From the NCBI RefSeq assembly GCF_026151205.1, contig NC_087077.1, positions 19,465,975 to 19,529,974 of the forward strand: 64,000 nucleotides of DNA, given 5' to 3'. A model generated the notes under the pieces. It made no database searches. It was not told the origin of the DNA and was given only the letters and a program-made list of their open reading frames with translations. This document shows positions 1 to 21,284 of this stretch, in pieces (positions within the stretch are counted from its first letter, which is position 1; every line of letters starts with the position of its first letter). The position numbers and the translations under genes are program-made. The stretch comes from Bolinopsis microptera. Lineage: Eukaryota; Ctenophora; Tentaculata; Lobata; Bolinopsidae.

Positions 1-191
1 CTCGATTCAACATAAGAAATTCGAAAGAAGTTATTGCAATGCTTTTTGTGGAGATATGATATAAACTGTGCCTTCAATAATTAAATCTTTGCCGGGAATT
101 ATTTCCCCGAAAAGTCGTGGACACTGGTAACCGATAATTTTCCGCAAGGGTTGCCAGAGTATTATGAGGACAGACTGAGAGTAACCTCACT
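1..191. other. non-coding, nothing recognised
   Basis: AT-rich sequence with no exon-like stretch, RNA gene or repeat that I can identify. It abuts the inverted-repeat element that follows. Confidence 0.4.
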
Positions 192-404
192 CCTCAGACT
201 GGCTGGCGGGAAGAAAAAATTATAATACAATACTACCTTGGCTGTTGAGTGCTACTACTATACGGGCGATAATGCCCGACGCTTTAGCGGAGGGCGAGCC
301 CGGCACGATAACTTAGCGAAGGTATTATTTGTTATAATTTTTCCCGTTCTGGATGAAACAATGTGATACATGCGCTGATACAATTCCCTCCAGCCAGTCT
401 GAGG
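192..404. mobile_element. small inverted-repeat element (MITE/foldback-like)
   Basis: The ends are a 15-bp inverted repeat, CCTCAGACTGGCTGG at 192 and its complement ending at 404. A second inner pair follows: AAAAAATTATAATACAATACT near 215 is mirrored by the stretch around 325-345. No coding capacity is visible. No convincing target-site duplication was found, so the superfamily is not assigned. The end sequence recurs in part near 33545 (CTCCAGCCAGTCTCA). Confidence 0.5.
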
Positions 405-872
405 TGACTAATTACATATTATAATTATATATTATACGAGTCAAACCACTGATTAAAGATGACATAATATGATACCCAAAATTAATGGGTTCTCCAACAG
501 AGAGGACAAACAATTAAATACATGACAATACCTTGGAATAATCTTAATTGCAATACGAATTCATAAAACAATGCGGGGGACTGAGATTATTATTTGTAGC
601 CTTTCGATTTGATTGACAGGCCAGCACTGGTGGCATAGATTAAAATATTCCACAGAAATCCTCTTTTGTTGGACTCGAAAGCTCCGTATACTCACTCTGA
701 TATAAAATAATTCAACGTCCAATGATTATAACTCTTAGAAGATCTATACAGTGAAAGAGTGAAGATATGATGTAATCTCGAAACATGAATACTATTTAAG
801 TGGTTGCCGGCTTAGTAGTTAGTACAAGGACATGATATTAATAAGGCAGCCTCATCTATCATCATGAATTTG
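405..872. other. non-coding stretch
   Basis: No feature is recognised. One minus-strand open stretch with an acceptor- and donor-like flank occurs near 520-580, but its phase does not fit the neighbouring exon, so it is not called. Confidence 0.3.
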
Positions 873-1005
873 AAATTATGTCATCTTTTACCAATTATTA
901 CCAATTATTACCAGACACCAGTAACCGTAAGGGCTTTGTCTCTAAATAAAATGATGAGCGTGTTTAACTAGAGCCTTGGGCGTCTGGTAAAAGATGACAT
1001 AATTT
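873..1005. mobile_element. 133-bp MITE with 21-bp terminal inverted repeats
   Basis: AAATTATGTCATCTTTTACC at 873 is matched by its complement ending at 1005; the 21-bp arms are perfect. The interior starts with a short ATTATTACCA duplication. No ORF. A fragment of the same end (AAAGATGACATAAT) occurs near 455, which suggests a family. Confidence 0.55.
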
Positions 1006-1085
1006 AAAATAATGCAATGAAATGGATATGTAATCCAGCTTGAGCTGTAAGGATAAGCAAGCTAATAGTTATGTATAGCTATGTA

Positions 1086-1203
1086 ATACCTAGAGCAAGA
1101 AAGGGATAAGAGCACACAGGAGCCCACAGAAATAGTGGTAATAGTATGAAATACCTAGAGCAAGAAAGGGATCAGAGCACACAGGAGCCCACAGGAATAG
1201 TGG
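1086..1203 (-). repeat. two-copy 65-bp tandem duplication of an exon end and its splice donor
   Basis: Copies start at 1086 and 1151 (period 65 bp). Each holds the 3' end of the exon called at 1155-1266 plus its GT donor, on the minus strand. Reading past the exon-proximal donor, the frame stays open through the second copy and then meets TAG exactly at the distal donor. Only the proximal donor therefore gives a readable junction. Confidence 0.7.
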
Positions 1204-1266
1204 CAAGGAGGCGGTATCTTGGTGGATCAGCGTGTAATTATCCGGATATACCAGCACTGTTCCCAG
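1155..1266 (-). CDS. internal exon of VPS13/Vps62-like gene
   Basis: The minus strand has a strong acceptor (TTCTTATTTCAG) before 1266 and a donor (CTCTAG then GTATTT) after 1155. The exon is 112 nt and opens in one frame for 37 codons, including YPDNYTLIHQD and LFLWAPVCSDPFLALG. This W-x-P ... F/Y-x-x-LG spacing is typical of the repeated modules in VPS13 adaptor-binding and Vps62/DUF946 proteins. The 5' phase is 0, while the exon upstream in the transcript (4698-4815) ends in phase 2. A small exon may therefore be missing between them, or a different donor is used. The 3' phase is 1. Membership in the same gene rests on strand, position and motif type. Confidence 0.6.
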
Positions 1267-2183
1267 CTGAAATAAGAAGATCTGTTAGAAGGGTCTTGTG
1301 AAATCTGTTAGATTTAGAAGTGTCTTGTGGAAACATAGACCAAAATATTGCGTTCTGAGCAGGGATCCTTCCCAAAAATACATATAAACTTTAAAGTCAC
1401 ATTGCATATGTGTTGAGCTGGCTATGGTAGACCTGATACCGGGAACTCTGAAACAACAAGTATGATTCTATGATATTTGAACTACTTAATAGTGAAGCTG
1501 GTAACATACTTTCCCTGAGAGAAGATATGTGGTGTGTGTAGAGTCTGGTGCAGTCAAATAGGATCCTGTCCTGTAAAACTGTGCTGATCTGGGGAATGCT
1601 GACATTAGTTAAATAAAAAATATCATTAAATTCTCTTCAATTACCAGAACCAACTGACCATACAATTTCTCCTTCAGTTTCAATTCTTAGGATGAAAAAG
1701 ACCATAAATTATGAACCAAAGACATATAAAAAAGCCTCTTGAATTGCTTGAGATACTACCATTCACAATATCCTTCCAATCCTTCCAATTGTTCGAATTG
1801 TTCGAGATATTCTAATTTCTCGAATATTTCGATATGATTGAATTTTCAAATTTTTCGAGGTGATCAAATTGTTCGTGGTGTTGGAATGGTTAAATTGTTT
1901 ACTATTTTATTCGTGAGTGGTAGCGATGTTGGAATGGTTAAATTGTTTACTATTTTATTCGCGAGACTTCCATAGTAGTACTAGTATGTAGCAGGCAATT
2001 GCCTAACCGCTAAACTCTCCTTTAAAGGCCTGATGGAAGTAAAGGTCTAACAACTAGAAATACGATTGAATATTTAAATAGTAATCATAGTTCATGATTA
2101 TACGGTAAAATAGTTTCACAAAATTAAACTGGGAGTTCGGGGACAAAATGTAAGATATTTCCAGATTGTAAGATATTTCCAGA
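1267..2183. other. probable intron with a 34-bp direct duplication
   Basis: No coding exon is identified. GTTGGAATGGTTAAATTGTT starts at 1880 and again at 1928 (34-bp matches 48 bp apart). The 1750-1900 stretch is rich in short TTCGAA-like palindromic runs. A minus-strand acceptor-like TCTTCTCTCAG near 1515 opens a short frame but no convincing exon follows. Confidence 0.35.
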
Positions 2184-4737
2184 AACTTACCTGACGTCTG
2201 AAAGTTTAGAAGAGTAAACAGCAACTTTGCTTACCTGACGTCTGCAAGTTTAGAAGAGTAAATAGCAACTTTGCTTACCTGACGTCTGCAAGTTTAGAGG
2301 AGTAAATAGCAACTTTGCTTACCTGACGTCTGCAAGTTTAGAAGAGTAAATAGCAACTTTGCTTACCTGACGTCTGCAAGTTTAGAAGAGTAAATAACAA
2401 CTTTGCTTACCTGACGTCTGCAAGTTTAGAAGAGTAAATAGCAACTTTGCTTACCTGACGTCTGCAAGTTTAGAAGAGTAAATAGCAACTTTGCTTACCT
2501 GATGTCTGCAAGTTTAGAAGAGTGAATAGCAACTTTGCTTACCTGACGTCTGCAAGTTTAGAAGAGTAAATAGCAACTTTGCTTACCTGACGTCTGCAAG
2601 TTTAGAAGAGTAAATAGCAACTTTGCTTACCTGATGTCTGCAAGTTTAGAAGAGTGAATAGCAACTTTGCTTACCTGATGTCTGCAAGTTTAGAAGAGTG
2701 AATAGCAACTTTGCTTACCTGACGTCTGCAAGTTTAGAAGAGTGAATAGCAACTTTGCTTACCTGACGTCTGCAAGTTTAGAAGAGTGAATAGCAACTTT
2801 GCTTACCTGACGTATGCAAGTTTAGAAGAGTAAATAGCAACTTTGCTTACCTGACGTCTGCAAGCTTAGAAGAGTAAATAGCAACTTTGCTTACCTGACG
2901 TCTGCAAGTTTAGAAGAGTAAATAGCAACTTTGCTTACCTGACGTCTGCAAGTTTAGAAGAGTAAATAGCAACTTTGCTTACCTGACGTCTGAAAGTTTA
3001 GAAGAGTAAATAGCAACTTTGCTTACCTGACGTCTGCTAGTTTAGAAGAGTAAATAGCAACTTTGCTTACCTGACGTCTGCAAGTTTAGAAGAGTAAATA
3101 GCAACTTTGCTTACCTGACGTCTGCAAGTTTAGAAGAGTAAATAGCAACTTTGCTTACCTGACGTCTGCAAGTTTAGAAGAGTAAATAGCAACCTCGCTT
3201 ACCTGACGTCTGGAAGTTTAGAAGAGTAAATAGCAACTTTGCTTACCTGACGTCTGCAAGTTTAGAAGAGTAAATAGCAACTTTGCTTACCTGACGTCTG
3301 CAAGTTTAGAAGAGTAAATAGCAACTTTGCTTACCTGACGTCTGCAAGTTTAGAAGAGTAAATAGCAACCTTGCTTACCTGACGTCTGGAAGTTTAGAAG
3401 AGTAAATAGCAACTTTGCTTACCTGACGTCTCAAGTTTAGAAGAGTAAATAGCAACTTTGCTTACCTGACGTCTGCAAGTTTAGAGGAGTAAATAGCAAC
3501 TTTGCTTACCTGACGTCTGCAAGTTTAGAAGAGTAAATAGCAACTGTGCTTACCTGACGTCTGCAAGTTTAGAAGAGTAAATAGCAACTTTGCTTACCTG
3601 ACGTCTGCAAGTTTAGAAGAGTAAATAGCAACTTTGCTTACCTGACGTCTGCAAGTTTAGAAGAGTAAATAGCAACTTTGCTTACCTGACGTCTGCAAGT
3701 TTAGAAGAGTAAACAGCAACTTTGCTTACCTGAGGTCTGCAAGTTTAGAAGAGTAAATAGCAACTTTGCTTACCTGACGTCTGCAAGTTTAGAAGAGTAA
3801 ATAGCAACTTTGCTTACCTGAAGTCTGCAAGTTTAGAAGAGTAAATAGCAACTTTGCTTACCTGACGTCTGCAAGTTTAGAAGAGTAAATAGCAACTTTG
3901 CTTACCTGACGTCTGCAAGTTTAGAAGAGTAAATAGCAACTTTGCTTACCTGACGTCTGCAAGTTTAGAAGAGTAAATAGCAACTTTGCTTACCTGACGT
4001 CTGCAAGTTTAGAAGAGTAAATAGCAACTTTGCTTACCTGAAGTCTGCAAGTTTAGAAGAGTAAACAGCAACTTTGCTTACCTGACGTCTGCAAGTTTAG
4101 AAGAGTAAATAGCAACTTTGCTTACCTGACGTCTGCAAGTTTAGAAGAGTAAATAGCAACTGTGCTTACCTGACGTCTGCACGTTTAGAAGAGTAAATAG
4201 CAACTTTGCTTACCTGACGTCTGCAAGTTTAGAAGAGTAAATAGCAACTTTGCTTACCTGACGTCTGCAAGTTTAGAAGAGTAAATAGCAACTTTGCTTA
4301 CCTGACGTCTGCAAGTTTAGAAGAGTAAATAGCAACTGTGCTTACCTGACGTCTGCAAGTTTAGAAGAGTAAATAGCAACTGTGCTTACCTGATGTCTGC
4401 AAGTTTAGAAGAGTAAATAGCAACTTTGCTTACCTGATGTCTGCAAGTTTAGAGGAGTAAATAGCAACTGTGCTTACCTGACGTCTGCACGTTTAGAAGA
4501 GTAAATAGCAACTTTGCTTACCTGACGTCTGCAAGTTTAGAAGAGTAAATAGCAACTTTGCTTACCTGACGTCTGCAAGTTTAGAAGAGTAAATAGCAAC
4601 TTGGCTTACCTGATGTCTCCAAGTTTAGAAGAGTAAATAGCAACTTTGCTTACCTGACGTCTGCACGTTTAGAAGAGTAAATAGCAACTTTGCTTACCTG
4701 ACGTCTGCAAGTTTAGAAGAGTAAATAGCAACTTTGC
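2184..4737 (-). repeat. 44-bp minisatellite, ~58 copies, made of an exon end plus splice donor
   Basis: On the plus strand the unit begins GCTTACCTGACGTCTGCAAG and continues TTTAGAAGAGTAAATAGCAACTTT in the next 24 nt. On the minus strand it is the last 38 nt of the exon at 4698-4815, encoding KVAIYSSKLADVR, followed by GTAAGC. Copies are highly homogeneous. Changes fall mostly in ACGTC (ATGTC, AGGTC, AAGTC), in GCAAG and in the CTTTG junction. The donor core CTTACCTGA looks unchanged in essentially every copy I read. In the coding frame each unit reads GTC AGG TAA, so a stop lies across every donor. The array sits directly downstream of the exon in the transcript. Confidence 0.9.
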
Positions 4738-4815
4738 TGCCCGTCTCTTTCCAGATGAGACTTCCGGGACCAACTTCTTTAACTTTTATACCTTCTTCTA
4801 CAACGGCTTCCTCGT
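4698..4815 (-). CDS. internal exon of VPS13/Vps62-like gene; source of the 44-bp array
   Basis: The minus-strand acceptor is TTTCACTACTAG before 4815 and the donor is GACGTCAG then GTAAGC at 4697-4696. The 118-nt exon starts with two bases completing a codon (G+AC, Asp, with the exon at 6212-6282) and reads EEAVVEEGIKVKEVGPGS, LIWKETGSKVAIY, SSKLADV, ending in phase 2. The P-x-S-L-I-W-K-E-T-G-S pattern suits the start of a VPS13/Vps62-type module. The last 38 exonic bases and the donor form the first unit of the downstream array. Phase agreement with the upstream exon is the main support; the family is inferred from motif spacing only. Confidence 0.7.
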
Positions 4816-4825
4816 CTAGTAGTGA

Positions 4826-5115
4826 AAGAAAATACAGTAAAAATATCATAACCAGGTTCACACCCTGGCTCTATAATATGACTTGTTTCAATTCCAAATA
4901 AGTAGAGGGTTGAAATTTTTAAAATTTAATTTTTCATTTCAAATATTCGATTGATCATGTCTTATTCAAAAAGAAAATACAGTAAAAATATCATAACCAG
5001 GTTCACACCCTGGCTCTATAATATGACTTGTTTCAATTCCAAATAAGTAGAGGGTTGAAATTTTTAAAATTTAATTTTTCATTTCAAATATTCGATTGAT
5101 CATGTCTTATTCATA
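4826..5115. repeat. 145-bp direct tandem duplication
   Basis: Two near-identical copies, 4826-4970 and 4971-5115, both starting AAGAAAATACAGTAAAAATA. They lie in the intron next to the acceptor of the exon at 4698-4815; the proximal copy contains part of its pyrimidine tract. The near-perfect identity implies a recent event. Confidence 0.85.
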
Positions 5116-5173
5116 AACTAATAAATAGCACTGACTCATTTTTATAAAACTTATGTTTCAACTCATCTCCAGG

Positions 5174-5186: not shown

Positions 5187-5395
5187 TTCACTCACCAGGA
5201 CCAGGGTTTGCAACTGTAAGAAACTCAGTGTTCAGTACCCACACAGGGAACATATGTCTCCTGTACTTAATGTCTAATATAAAGTGTTGAGCACTGAGTC
5301 CCCCTGATCTGTCCTCCCCTTCTGCTGATATCAAGTCTAGGTGACCTCTGGGAGGTTAGATATTACATAGTGTATTAAATAGTCCTTGGCATGTT

Positions 5396-10999: not shown

Positions 11000-11132
11000 G
11001 GTCAATTTAACATTAAGGGTCAATTTAATTCAAATATACAATAAAACAGAAAATTGATGACTATGAAGACATGAAGTGTTCATATTGAAGACTATGGAGT
11101 GTTTATATTGAAGACTATGGAGTGTTTATGGG

Positions 11133-11270
11133 TTATTTAACTTTGTTAGTCACATCTACAGTCACAACTTTGGTCACCATTTTGTACACGGGCGAGAGTT
11201 TACATTCTTTGTGAAATTCCTCAGCAGACTCGACGGTTTTCAGTTCTTCTCCCCACTCAGCAATAGCGCT
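11133..11270 (-). CDS. NRDC: terminal coding exon of nardilysin-like gene
   Basis: The minus-strand acceptor TTTATTAACAG precedes 11270. The exon opens in phase 0 and reads SAIAEWGEELKTVESAEEFH, KECKLSPVYKMVTK, VVTVDVTNKVK, then TAA at 11135-11133. The amphipathic E-F-H-K-x-C-x-L-S-P stretch corresponds to the final helix segment near the C-terminus of M16A peptidases. No canonical AATAAA is visible in the next ~130 nt on the minus strand. A short GAAGACTATGGAGTGTT duplication lies just downstream (11073-11125). Confidence 0.85.
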   Translation of the reverse strand, partial: SAIAEWGEELKTVESAEEFHKECKLSPVYKMVTKVVTVDVTNKVK

Positions 11271-11345
11271 CTGTTAATAAATTTAATTAGAATATGTTAC
11301 TCCGATCAGATGGAATACCATAAAATAGTAGACAGCTAGAGTCTA

Positions 11346-12358: not shown

Positions 12359-12447
12359 TGTGGCAACTGGCAACTGGCCAATATGGCAACTGGCCAATGT
12401 GGCAACTGGCCAATATGGCAACTGGCCAATGTGGCAACTGGCCAAAA
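12359..12447. repeat. 16-bp minisatellite (GGCCAATATGGCAACT)
   Basis: About five copies alternating GGCCAATATGGCAACT and GGCCAATGTGGCAACT. The array begins a few bases inside the intron, right at the donor of the exon at 12453-12593. Confidence 0.85.
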
Positions 12448-18031: not shown

Positions 18032-19740
18032 CTACGGCGTAACATGTTTGATGTTCCTCCATTCCACTCGCTTTAGAGCCAACTGTTTTACTGCATATCT
18101 GCTGATGTTATCGACACCTGTAAATTCAGCTGCATCCTCGAGTACACAGGCCATCCAGCCTTTGCGGGGTCGTCCTCTCAGTCTCTTTCCATAGTTTGGT
18201 TTCCAATCCAGTAAGAAATTGGGGAACCGCGTCTCTGGCATTCTGACAACTTAACATGTCCGTACCACCTTAGTCTAGCCGCACCGATGAAAGTTTCGAT
18301 AGACTTAATTCCAGCACGCCTGAGAACTTCTTCATTGGAGACATGGAAGTACCACTTTATCTTCAAGATTCTTCTCAGGGAGGTCAGATGGAAGACATCA
18401 AACCGTTTCATCTGCTTCTTTGTTGTGTTCCACACTTCAGCTCCATATAACAGAATAGTAATAACAGCAGCCTTGTAGATACGGATCTTGGTGGGCGTTC
18501 TTATAGTTCGACTGTTCCATATCTTCCAAAGCTGATGGAACGCACCATTAGCACGCTGGATCCTGATGTCAAGATCTCGGTCAATGGTACCATCCCCACT
18601 GATGTTGGCACCAAGATAAACAAAGTTGCTGACCTGTTCAACAGGTTCTCCCTGCACTGTTAGCTTTATACTGTCTCTTTCGGTGTTAGGTCGCTGGGAC
18701 GCACACTTGCTGATCGCCATGCATTGTGTCTTTTTAGCGTTGATCTTCAACCCAGCATAAGAGGTGTAATAAGCTATAAGATCAGTGGACTCTTGCAGCC
18801 CTTCTTCAGTATTGTCCATCACTGCCAGATCATCAGCGTAGTCACTATCCATGATAACTTTTTCATCTGCACCCTTTAGTTCCTTTTGCAGTACAGCACC
18901 ATGACTGATTGCCTTGTGAACCTCGGCCAAAAAGATTCCAAAGTTCAGACAGAAATTAAATACAGGAGGGCCCTGGATATCACCCGGTCCAGTGCCCGAA
19001 TTAATAGAGAACCAATCAGACATTTCACCATTAACCCTGACAGCACTCATGGTTCCGTTGAAGTATGCCTGAAAGATTCTAACATATTTCTCAGGAAGTC
19101 CATAGTGTCTCATGCTTGACCAAATAAACTCTCTTCTGATGGAATCAAACGCTGCCTTAAAATCAATGAAATTAACATAAAGTGGAATGTTAAACTCAAT
19201 GCAGTTGTGAATAATGGTGCGGATGGAATAAATCTGATCAATACATGAGCGGTTCCGTCTGAACCCACACTGATTTTCCCTAAGAAGATACTCCATTCCA
19301 ACATCCAGCCTCTTAAGAAGAACCATTTGAAGAACCTTAGAAGACGTTGCCCTAAGAGTTATACCCCTATTATTGCAGCAGTATGAGGTGTCTCCCTTCT
19401 TTCCGATAACCACTATAACACCTTTAAGCCAATCCTCAGGGATCACCTCTTCCTCCCATACCAGGGACAAAAGGAAATCGCGGCATGTACGGGATCGCGA
19501 TTTTTCCCATTATTTGCGACAAATTTTATGTATAGTTTAATGTATAGCCTGTTAAATTTCGCGGTATCGCGATTTTTTGCCAAAATAATCGCGAAATCCT
19601 TTTGTCCCTGTCCCATACCTTTTTAAACAGTAGCTCTAGTTGGCCAACAAGAGCACTTCCACCATACTTAAGTTGTTCATTAGTTATCTCATCAACCCCT
19701 GCACTTTTGCAGTTCTTCAGTTTCTTTAGAGCATAACTAA
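18032..19740 (-). pseudogene. reverse transcriptase pseudogene of the LINE
   Basis: The longest intact part is 18178-19470. It is broken upstream by the 149-bp MITE at 19462-19610; the frame resumes at once on the other side (KKVW / EEEVIPEDW). It is broken downstream by a frameshift near 18245. The catalytic Asp of motif A and the YADD motif are retained, but the ORF is interrupted and lacks an N-terminus, so it should be inactive. Confidence 0.85.
19462..19610. mobile_element. 149-bp hAT-like MITE nested in the LINE
   Basis: Terminal inverted repeats start CAGGGACAAAAGGA and extend 21 bp with two mismatches. An 8-bp direct duplication, TCCCATAC, flanks it (19454-19461 and 19611-19618). CAGGG ends plus 8-bp target duplications are typical of hAT transposons. 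Removing the element and one duplication restores the reading frame of the host LINE, fixing the insertion order. Internal GCGATTTTT / AAATCGCG blocks are also inverted. Confidence 0.88.
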
Positions 19741-19755
19741 TCTCATCTCTAACGT

Positions 19756-21284
19756 TACATAAGATTACTTTATTGTATTATATCGTTTGTTTTGTAATTA
19801 TGAAACAATAATACGTGATATTTCTTATTATTTCATATATTTCTTATTATTTCATATTATTTCTTATTATTTCATAACGCCCCCTCAGTTAAGGCGCAAG
19901 ATGACAGTTAGTGTAAATAGCACTGTCTCCTTCTGCCAACTAGCGCTAGTTAGCACTACGAAATTGGGGTTTGCGGGATTTTTCGTAAACTGACATAGAT
20001 AGCGTTCTCTGGCGCAGGATAACTGATGTTTACTAGCACTAGCTACTTACTAGCACTAGCTTAACTAATATGGTCGCCTTTCATCCGCGAAGTGTTTACG
20101 TTTTTGACGTCGCGTGATTCGTGGAATCGGGACTACGAGCCATACATAGCTATAGACTTATTAATTACGAATTTAATTTCGTGTTATCGCTAGAGGGTGT
20201 TCACAATTACAATTTAATATGATCGTATAAAAGGTTGTGTTATGTATGGCTGAATAACGGTAGCTAGCTGTCACGTTTATCGCAAAAGGACCACAATCCC
20301 ATCCCACATGTTATCATGATCAGAATATGCTCGATAATGGAAGTAGCAGTAACAAATACCACCTGTCCAGTAGATATTTTAAATTTGCATCGGCACATTT
20401 TCTGTCAAATCAAATCTGTCGGCCTTCAGGTAAAATAATAACTCCGAGGGAGACGACCCGCACCCATGTTATATGCGTTATCAAAACCTTCCTCATGTTT
20501 TTTCTTGATAGTCATATTTCTGTGGTTTCGCTGTTACAGGCGTGGTGAAGTTAAGGGGCACAGATATTGATCAAATAGGGCTTTTTTGTTAATGAAATTG
20601 CTTTCTTGGTGGGTTTTCCTGAACCCCGGACAATCTATTATATATGTGATGGTACCTTTACTGTTTACCTGTATTTTACTATTGGACCACCCAAACCTAC
20701 AATATTTATGCACCGTTTCGCATCAATGTGTGAATATTTGAGGCATGCTACTGGCAACCCTCCCATATTCACGCAAGTAAGAGACATTTCTACCCTATGG
20801 GAAATAGAGCACCCCTTTAATATTGTGATATTCTGATAGGATATGCGTTGTTTCATCCGCCCATTAATAAAGATTAAAGACCTTTCCCGTTTCCAACCAA
20901 AACCTTTAACTCAATAATAAGGGCACTATAAATAGTAGCAATAGTAGCAGTAGTACTATAGTAAATATTATAGCACTATAATACATAATAACCAAAGTGT
21001 CCTTACTCCTTAATCTGTAAGTTTTGTCTTTGTTTTTAATAATTTTCGCAATTAGAGTCCTAATAATTGAACTATTAGAGTCTTTGCTTCAAAATTTGGT
21101 GAGATATTATAATAATATACTCTTATCATTGTTTATACTGACATCAAAATATTTAAGTAAGTATGATAAGAATAGCGAGAGCTCTTATTGATGTGCAAGC
21201 TATTACATGATATATGTCGCATATTCTATTATAGCTATTATATGATATATTTTAATACTTTCAACACTACTATATAACAAATAA
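19756..21284. other. intronic, nothing recognised
   Basis: Contains TTTCTTATTATTTCATA triplication at 19820-19876 and short ACTAGCAC repeats near 20030-20055. Open frames of 60-76 codons here carry no motif. Confidence 0.35.

Follow-up and report, generated by a model that had tools for sequence, protein, structure and literature searches.

We analysed a window of 64,000 nucleotides from Bolinopsis microptera (C6:19465975-19529974, in an assembly of 264.65 Mb and 232 contigs), in which a 44-bp minisatellite abuts a candidate coding exon on the minus strand, downstream of a nardilysin-like M16 gene of the same orientation (Table 1). The nardilysin-like gene was mapped exon by exon on a 1077-aa relative (P0001; aligned over 77% of the query at 66% identity), which gave a stop-free model of 3213 nt with 22 introns; support for intron 4 is poor, with low site scores and internal copies of a piece of the relative. 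The last exon lies at 11139-11276 (P0001 residues 1031-1076 of 1077). Because the gene ends with a stop codon at 11135-11133, the 44-bp array lies outside it. The candidate exon is ruled out as a C-terminal exon of this gene, which ends upstream of it, and its phase is incompatible with a splice from the penultimate nardilysin-like exon.

Several other repeats and coding-like segments lie in this region. A 23-bp repeat (11064-11129) directly follows the stop codon, a 16-bp repeat (12368-12445) begins shortly after the penultimate donor, and a satellite with 52-bp units extends over about 24 kb, from 41737 to 64000 and on to C6:19531988, within the 38,217-bp intron 13. Exon-like segments at and around C6:19533016-19533281 read like a 7TM receptor on the plus strand, opposite to and inside the large nardilysin-like intron, and open reading frames on the minus strand at 18181-19777 resemble, as judged by eye, the reverse transcriptase of a non-LTR retrotransposon. 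An Rfam scan of positions 1-41000 at gathering cut-offs returned no match. The start of the window belongs to a segmental duplication that pairs, in pieces, C6:19458296-19468634 with 19577368-19596706.

Table 1. Positions of the array, the exon candidates and related features, counted from the first base of the window (/ marks a splice junction)
Feature	Positions	Strand	Basis or remark
Part of segmental duplication with C6:19593520-19596706, in pieces	9..2660		Genome comparison
Two AATAAA motifs, first bases 1959 and 1911	1906..1959	-	Downstream of array
58-unit 44-bp minisatellite	2185..4738	-	Unit is 39 exon-like nt plus GTAAG
Unit 58, intron side, ends CAG/GTAAGT	2185..2228	-	Unit list
Exon-proximal donor CAG/GTAAGC	4692..4700	-	Sole array donor avoiding the in-frame TAA at 4694-4696
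Candidate coding exon, 118 nt, DEEAVVEEGIKVKEVGPGSLIWKETGSKVAIYSSKLADVR	4698..4815	-	Introns fall within its first and last codons
Acceptor tract of candidate exon, TATTTTCTTTCACTACTAG	4816..4834	-	Sequence
Possible upstream exon, score 25.5	5196..5347	-	Candidate; phase-compatible with 4698-4815

The donor array and the exon candidate

Tandem Repeats Finder (TRF) places the array at 2186-4738 with a period of 44, 58.0 copies and a 97% match, and GGTAAG recurs 58 times on the minus strand at a spacing of 44 bp, with a single exception of 43 bp. Twenty-five of the 58 units match the consensus exactly. To the first-pass annotation the donor core had looked unchanged in every copy read, and the full count bears this out, with the core CAGGTAAG intact in 58/58 units; the next base is C in 57 of them and T in the intron-side unit. 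It had also described about 58 copies of CAG/GTAAGC, of which the number of units stands, but one copy is GTAAGT and only 57 are GTAAGC. The CAG/GTAAGC of these 57 arises because the adjoining unit begins with C. As described earlier, the unit matches the last 38 nt of the exon plus GTAAGC; cutting it as 39 exon nt plus GTAAG is better and closes neatly onto the intron. Since unit 58 runs into TTTCTG, giving CAG/GTAAGT, its GTAAGT is probably the ancestral donor of the array. GTAAGT is also nearer to the usual donor consensus, and this intron-side donor might compete with the exon-proximal one. Such a donor array is not a chance pattern.

The proposed frame reads GTC AG/G TAA, so that each later donor brings an immediate in-frame stop; the earlier claim that the exon-proximal donor alone would give a productive junction is thereby confirmed at the level of the reading frame.

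The candidate exon itself has a single open frame, a good acceptor and a strong donor exactly at the edge of the array, with a combined splice-plus-codon score (acceptor, donor and codons) of 21.4. The 21 internal nardilysin-like exons score 15.4-35.2, four of the 21 falling below the candidate, in a comparison that favours the nardilysin-like exons because the scoring model was partly trained on them; its codon part was also trained on eight 7TM receptor frames. Across 203.9 kb, 66 non-overlapping segments (39 on the minus strand, 27 on the plus strand) reach at least 21.4, the candidate included, and they comprise mapped exons, transposon-like ORFs and simple repeats. The 42-aa peptide of the candidate matched no Pfam family, no PDB sequence and nothing in a plasmid collection, and a search of its own genome returned only itself and one weak array-internal match (E 2.2). 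Neither the 30 word-sharing candidates among proteins of about 243-772 aa nor the single one among proteins of about 74-236 aa scored. The possible upstream exon had no Pfam match, and we found no convincing downstream partner among the longest 15 of 80 mechanical candidates. A 145-bp tandem duplication, 99% identical, occupies 4825-5117 and ends inside the acceptor tract upstream of the candidate. The segment had been taken for a coding exon from the outset. With a score inside the range of mapped exons, and neither a homologue nor an identified partner exon, it is a plausible one.

Splice-site arrays at other genes

The same arrangement occurs close by. In the same segmental duplication, an exon of a plus-strand 7TM receptor ends in ...TTCTTCAG/GTAAA, and this boundary is repeated as a 39-bp array, the copies of which likewise read AG/G TAA. 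Matches to 7tm_1 lie on both sides of the array (positions 70-122 before it and 146-260 after it), and of the two receptor paralogues, about 97% identical, the one here carries 5 array units and its duplicate 16, all donors intact. The 44-bp array also has a duplicate, which comprises 10 complete units plus another truncated at the breakpoint and lacks the exon. Followed from the intron end, both arrays have in common a terminal unit and a marker unit, separated by three units in one and by one in the other. Among 94 arrays with units of at least 15 bp in the 203.9-kb region, only these two have MAGGTRAG in the unit.

Splice sites of the nardilysin-like gene are likewise embedded in repeats. 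The donor of intron 3 lies inside a 90-bp array of five units. Both sites of intron 5 (C6:19541270-19541920) are duplicated, the donor being repeated once more at a distance of 154 bp, the acceptor forming a 56-bp array of four copies. At intron 7 (C6:19540470-19540870), the donor CACCAG/GTTTAT and the acceptor CACCAG/ sit in copies of one exon piece of about 31 bp, present three times in all; to judge from this layout, intron 7 looks like a case of intron creation by tandem duplication of an AGGT site. When 36-nt windows were compared along the gene, local copies were found for 3/22 donors and 3/22 acceptors, which amounts to 6/44 splice-site windows against 113/958 intron tiles and 7/232 exon tiles. 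Splice sites are thus not enriched among the copied DNA relative to intron. Because the rate of copying at splice-site windows is close to that of intron DNA and exceeds that of exon interiors, we read the copying of splice sites as general tandem duplication that is tolerated there and not as a mechanism aimed at splice sites.

Arrays of this kind also lie beside conserved genes elsewhere in the genome. On C1 we inspected the flanks of eight arrays, namely both from a listing with motif gaps of 25-55 and six of the 12 from a listing with gaps of 31-45, and three of the eight adjoin exons that match known families. One matches human GNL2 (residues 292-379, E 2e-38) and has as its donor a 38-bp array that runs from C1:1104951 to beyond 1108700, of which 45 donor units were read. 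The acceptor of this same exon is tandemly copied too: at L035 601-940 (C1:1104501-1104840), copies of CTCTCTCAG/TGTTGTAAAGTAGCCCCAC stand in tandem upstream of the real exon. The second exon is ADPGK-like (PF04587, E 2.7e-9; no match in PDB), and the third CFAP69-like (PF21049 at E 4e-6, just at the cut-off; PDB 9ijj at E 9e-6). One further array-flanking exon had a Sushi match below the cut-off (18.7 versus 20.7 bits). At L039, L040 and L041 the frame is open up to the donor with no Pfam match, nor did L039 match anything in PDB at an E-value below 0.2; at L042, one of the eight, there is no coding frame beside the array.

Genome-wide, we counted three successive MAGGTRAG motifs against the reversed pattern as a control. 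With gaps of 25-55 there were 4817 raw matches (2337+2480) versus 543 reversed (177+366), about nine times as many, and with gaps of 31-45 there were 2328 (805+1523) versus 386 (82+304); raw matches count every triple inside an array, so that long arrays weigh most. Counted by array on C1 with gaps of 31-45, at least 12 donor arrays (listed over 25.92 of 26.2 Mb) compare with two controls (two-sided sign test, p about 0.013). The basic unit falls inside the searched range in four of the 12 listed donor arrays and in both controls, the other eight donor arrays having short or irregular units, multiples of which fall in the range. By array, the excess of the donor motif is therefore modest, and for units of the searched size it is not established. 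Acceptor-motif arrays gave 672 matches versus 115 reversed, but many of the listed arrays appear unrelated to exons, and we base nothing on this difference.

By analogy with these genes, the proposed origin of the 44-bp array from an exon-intron boundary is supported: the architecture that the first-pass annotation had proposed recurs at exons with homology, while the array's own exon is a candidate. Alternatively, 4698-4815 would not be an exon at all, and the array would be an ordinary intergenic minisatellite the unit of which contains CAGGTAAG by chance. That the searches yielded neither homologue nor partner exon, that 66 segments including the candidate reach its score in 203.9 kb, some of them repeats, and that L042 shows an array without a coding frame would all suit this explanation. 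It has to set aside an open frame with a positive codon score, a good acceptor and a strong donor at the array edge, as well as like arrays at homology-supported exons, of which one lies about 7 kb off, and we consider it unlikely.

Past the receptor and nardilysin-like arrays, coding continues in a downstream exon. This bears on a further alternative, in which 4698-4815 would be a terminal exon: the protein would end in ...KLADVR with the TAA at 4696-4694, the array would be 3' UTR with its donors serving as unused U1 sites, and polyadenylation would take place near the AATAAA at 1959 or 1911. The stop codon is indeed in frame at once, two AATAAA motifs follow about 225-275 nt past the array, and the longest 15 of 80 mechanical candidates include no convincing downstream exon. 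Strong donors in a 3' UTR are expected to be spliced or, through U1, to hinder polyadenylation, and here there would be 58 of them. Together with the coding downstream exons of the receptor and nardilysin-like cases, this makes a terminal exon quite improbable.

Donor-core variation and the use of the donors

The earlier proposal that the donor core might be conserved beyond the rest of the unit could be examined column by column. The 58 units have 18 distinct substitutions over 14 columns and none in the eight core columns, for which P is 0.033 by columns and 0.027 by variants if variation is assumed to be uniform; adding the 10 duplicate units gives 20 variants over 15 columns, with P of 0.024 and 0.018. 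Variant-free windows of eight columns make up 3/44 in the 44-bp array, whereas in the non-coding 52-bp satellite their share averages 40% over 13 overlapping subsets, each of at most 58 units; 28 of the 426 satellite units were set aside for excessive divergence. Smaller comparators disagree, with 13/31 free windows in a 31-bp array (12 units) and 1/21 in a 21-bp array (21 units) that lies inside the window. In the duplicate array, where the exon is absent, the core is equally intact, and in the GNL2 array it is altered in two of the first nine units and intact in 36/36 later ones. The invariance is mildly unusual (P about 0.02-0.03) and counts mildly against an inert array. Constraint on the donor core is not established: the evidence for it is weak, the invariance is unremarkable beside the 52-bp satellite, and we dropped it as an argument after that comparison. 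On the earlier proposal, the absence of core variants (P 0.027-0.033) was as expected, but the satellite, the duplicate and GNL2 weaken the case for constraint.

Taken together, the array is probably a junction-spanning tandem duplication, largely neutral, of which the exon-proximal donor is spliced. Beyond the DNA structure of the array, we infer every step of this account. A 44-bp segment comprising the last 39 exon nt and the first 5 intron nt would have been duplicated in tandem and then expanded and homogenized via unequal exchange or slippage, carrying the extra 57 donors along passively. By exon definition, the upstream acceptor would pair with the nearest donor, giving the 118-nt exon; with nearest-donor splicing the extra copies would therefore be intronic and largely neutral. 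If a later donor were used now and then, the exon would be followed directly by TAA, and truncation or loss of those transcripts would result.

A contrasting proposal gives the copies a function, as a copy-number switch or decoy: the donors would either titrate U1 snRNP or control how many transcripts are productive and how many contain a stop, the length of the array tuning expression. Its appeal lies in 58/58 intact cores, in the stop added by every later donor and in the human IFI6 minisatellite, the alternative donors of which are reported to be used (PMC4526556). As set out above, though, core invariance is unremarkable beside the 52-bp satellite, the exon-less duplicate is as intact, the GNL2 array contains mutated donors, and copying at splice sites does not exceed that of intron DNA; in amphioxus, moreover, comparable arrays are reported to leave splicing undisturbed (PMC3087553, PMC3902484). 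We regard a switch or decoy as very improbable. Of the three roles first envisaged, an inert array with an exon-proximal donor fits best, and decoy and switch have little in their favour. Extended to the whole genome, which on this view would convert splice junctions into minisatellites throughout, array length could act as a heritable dial, more donors giving more stop-carrying transcripts or holding more U1 near the junction; if this were true, individuals with different copy numbers would also differ in how strongly they express conserved genes, GNL2 for example. We think this highly unlikely. Largely neutral arrays look instead like a by-product of tandem DNA copying, with which splicing must cope.

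Comparison with known systems

Our literature search, to which most subscription papers were closed, found no report of such arrays in ctenophores. Term searches of the accessible text of the Hormiphora (PMC8527503) and Mnemiopsis (PMC11797021) genome papers likewise returned none, the former calling 13% of its genome tandem repeat.

Minisatellites with multiple splice donors are known from human IFI6 (6-16), described by Turri et al. 1995 (cited in PMC4526556, PMC3618361 and PMC2572611), where two downstream units are reported to be used as donors, giving three mRNAs (PMC4526556). Similarly, the tandem units here carry donor sites, which in our case are predicted; unlike in IFI6, later donors would give an immediate stop, as predicted from the sequence. 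A tandem duplication across a splice boundary has also been proposed to supply ready splice signals in potato RdRp (PMC4974935). Nardilysin-like intron 7 resembles that model as it is reported, whereas the 2185-4738 array adds donors to an existing boundary and creates no new intron.

The closest counterparts are the "mirage" minisatellites of amphioxus, tandem copies of exon-intron boundaries that include 5' or 3' splice sites (PMC3087553, PMC3902484). In the available text of these papers, mirages are described in the globins BflGb6 and BflGb9 (PMC3087553) and in lancelet Adh (Adh3) and TnC, with similar repeats in PGBD5 (PMC3902484). Their units measure 10-72 bp in Adh3 and 150-160 bp in the globins (PMC3087553, PMC3902484), the BflGb6 mirage has 6 versus 3 units in two haplotypes (PMC3087553), and according to these reports they do not interfere with splicing (PMC3087553, PMC3902484). 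Features by which mirages are recognized can be compared one by one. The copies carry AG/GT splice signals, with CAG/GTAAG in all 58 units of the 44-bp array; the unit spans an exon-intron boundary at the 7TM receptor, nardilysin-like, GNL2, ADPGK-like and CFAP69-like genes, while that of the 44-bp array comprises the end of an exon, itself a candidate, and the start of its intron; and copy number is unstable between duplicated loci of one assembly (58 versus 11 units, one of them truncated, in addition to the receptor paralogues).

We therefore file the arrays under the known mirage kind, unusual in their length and in their spread over genes. As minisatellite-like boundary copies of varying number they resemble the amphioxus mirages as reported, from which they differ in reaching at least 58 units, in affecting several unrelated genes and in occurring in a different animal; the amphioxus cases are also backed by RT-PCR, those here by DNA sequence. 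Some arrays of this genome carry tens of donors, and each constitutes a natural experiment, in which dozens of equal-looking donors stand at graded distances from one acceptor-bearing exon. Whether the first, the strongest or the last is chosen bears on exon definition, co-transcriptional commitment and intron gain. In the accounts available from amphioxus, mirage arrays were described gene by gene; here they lie behind several unrelated genes of one genome.
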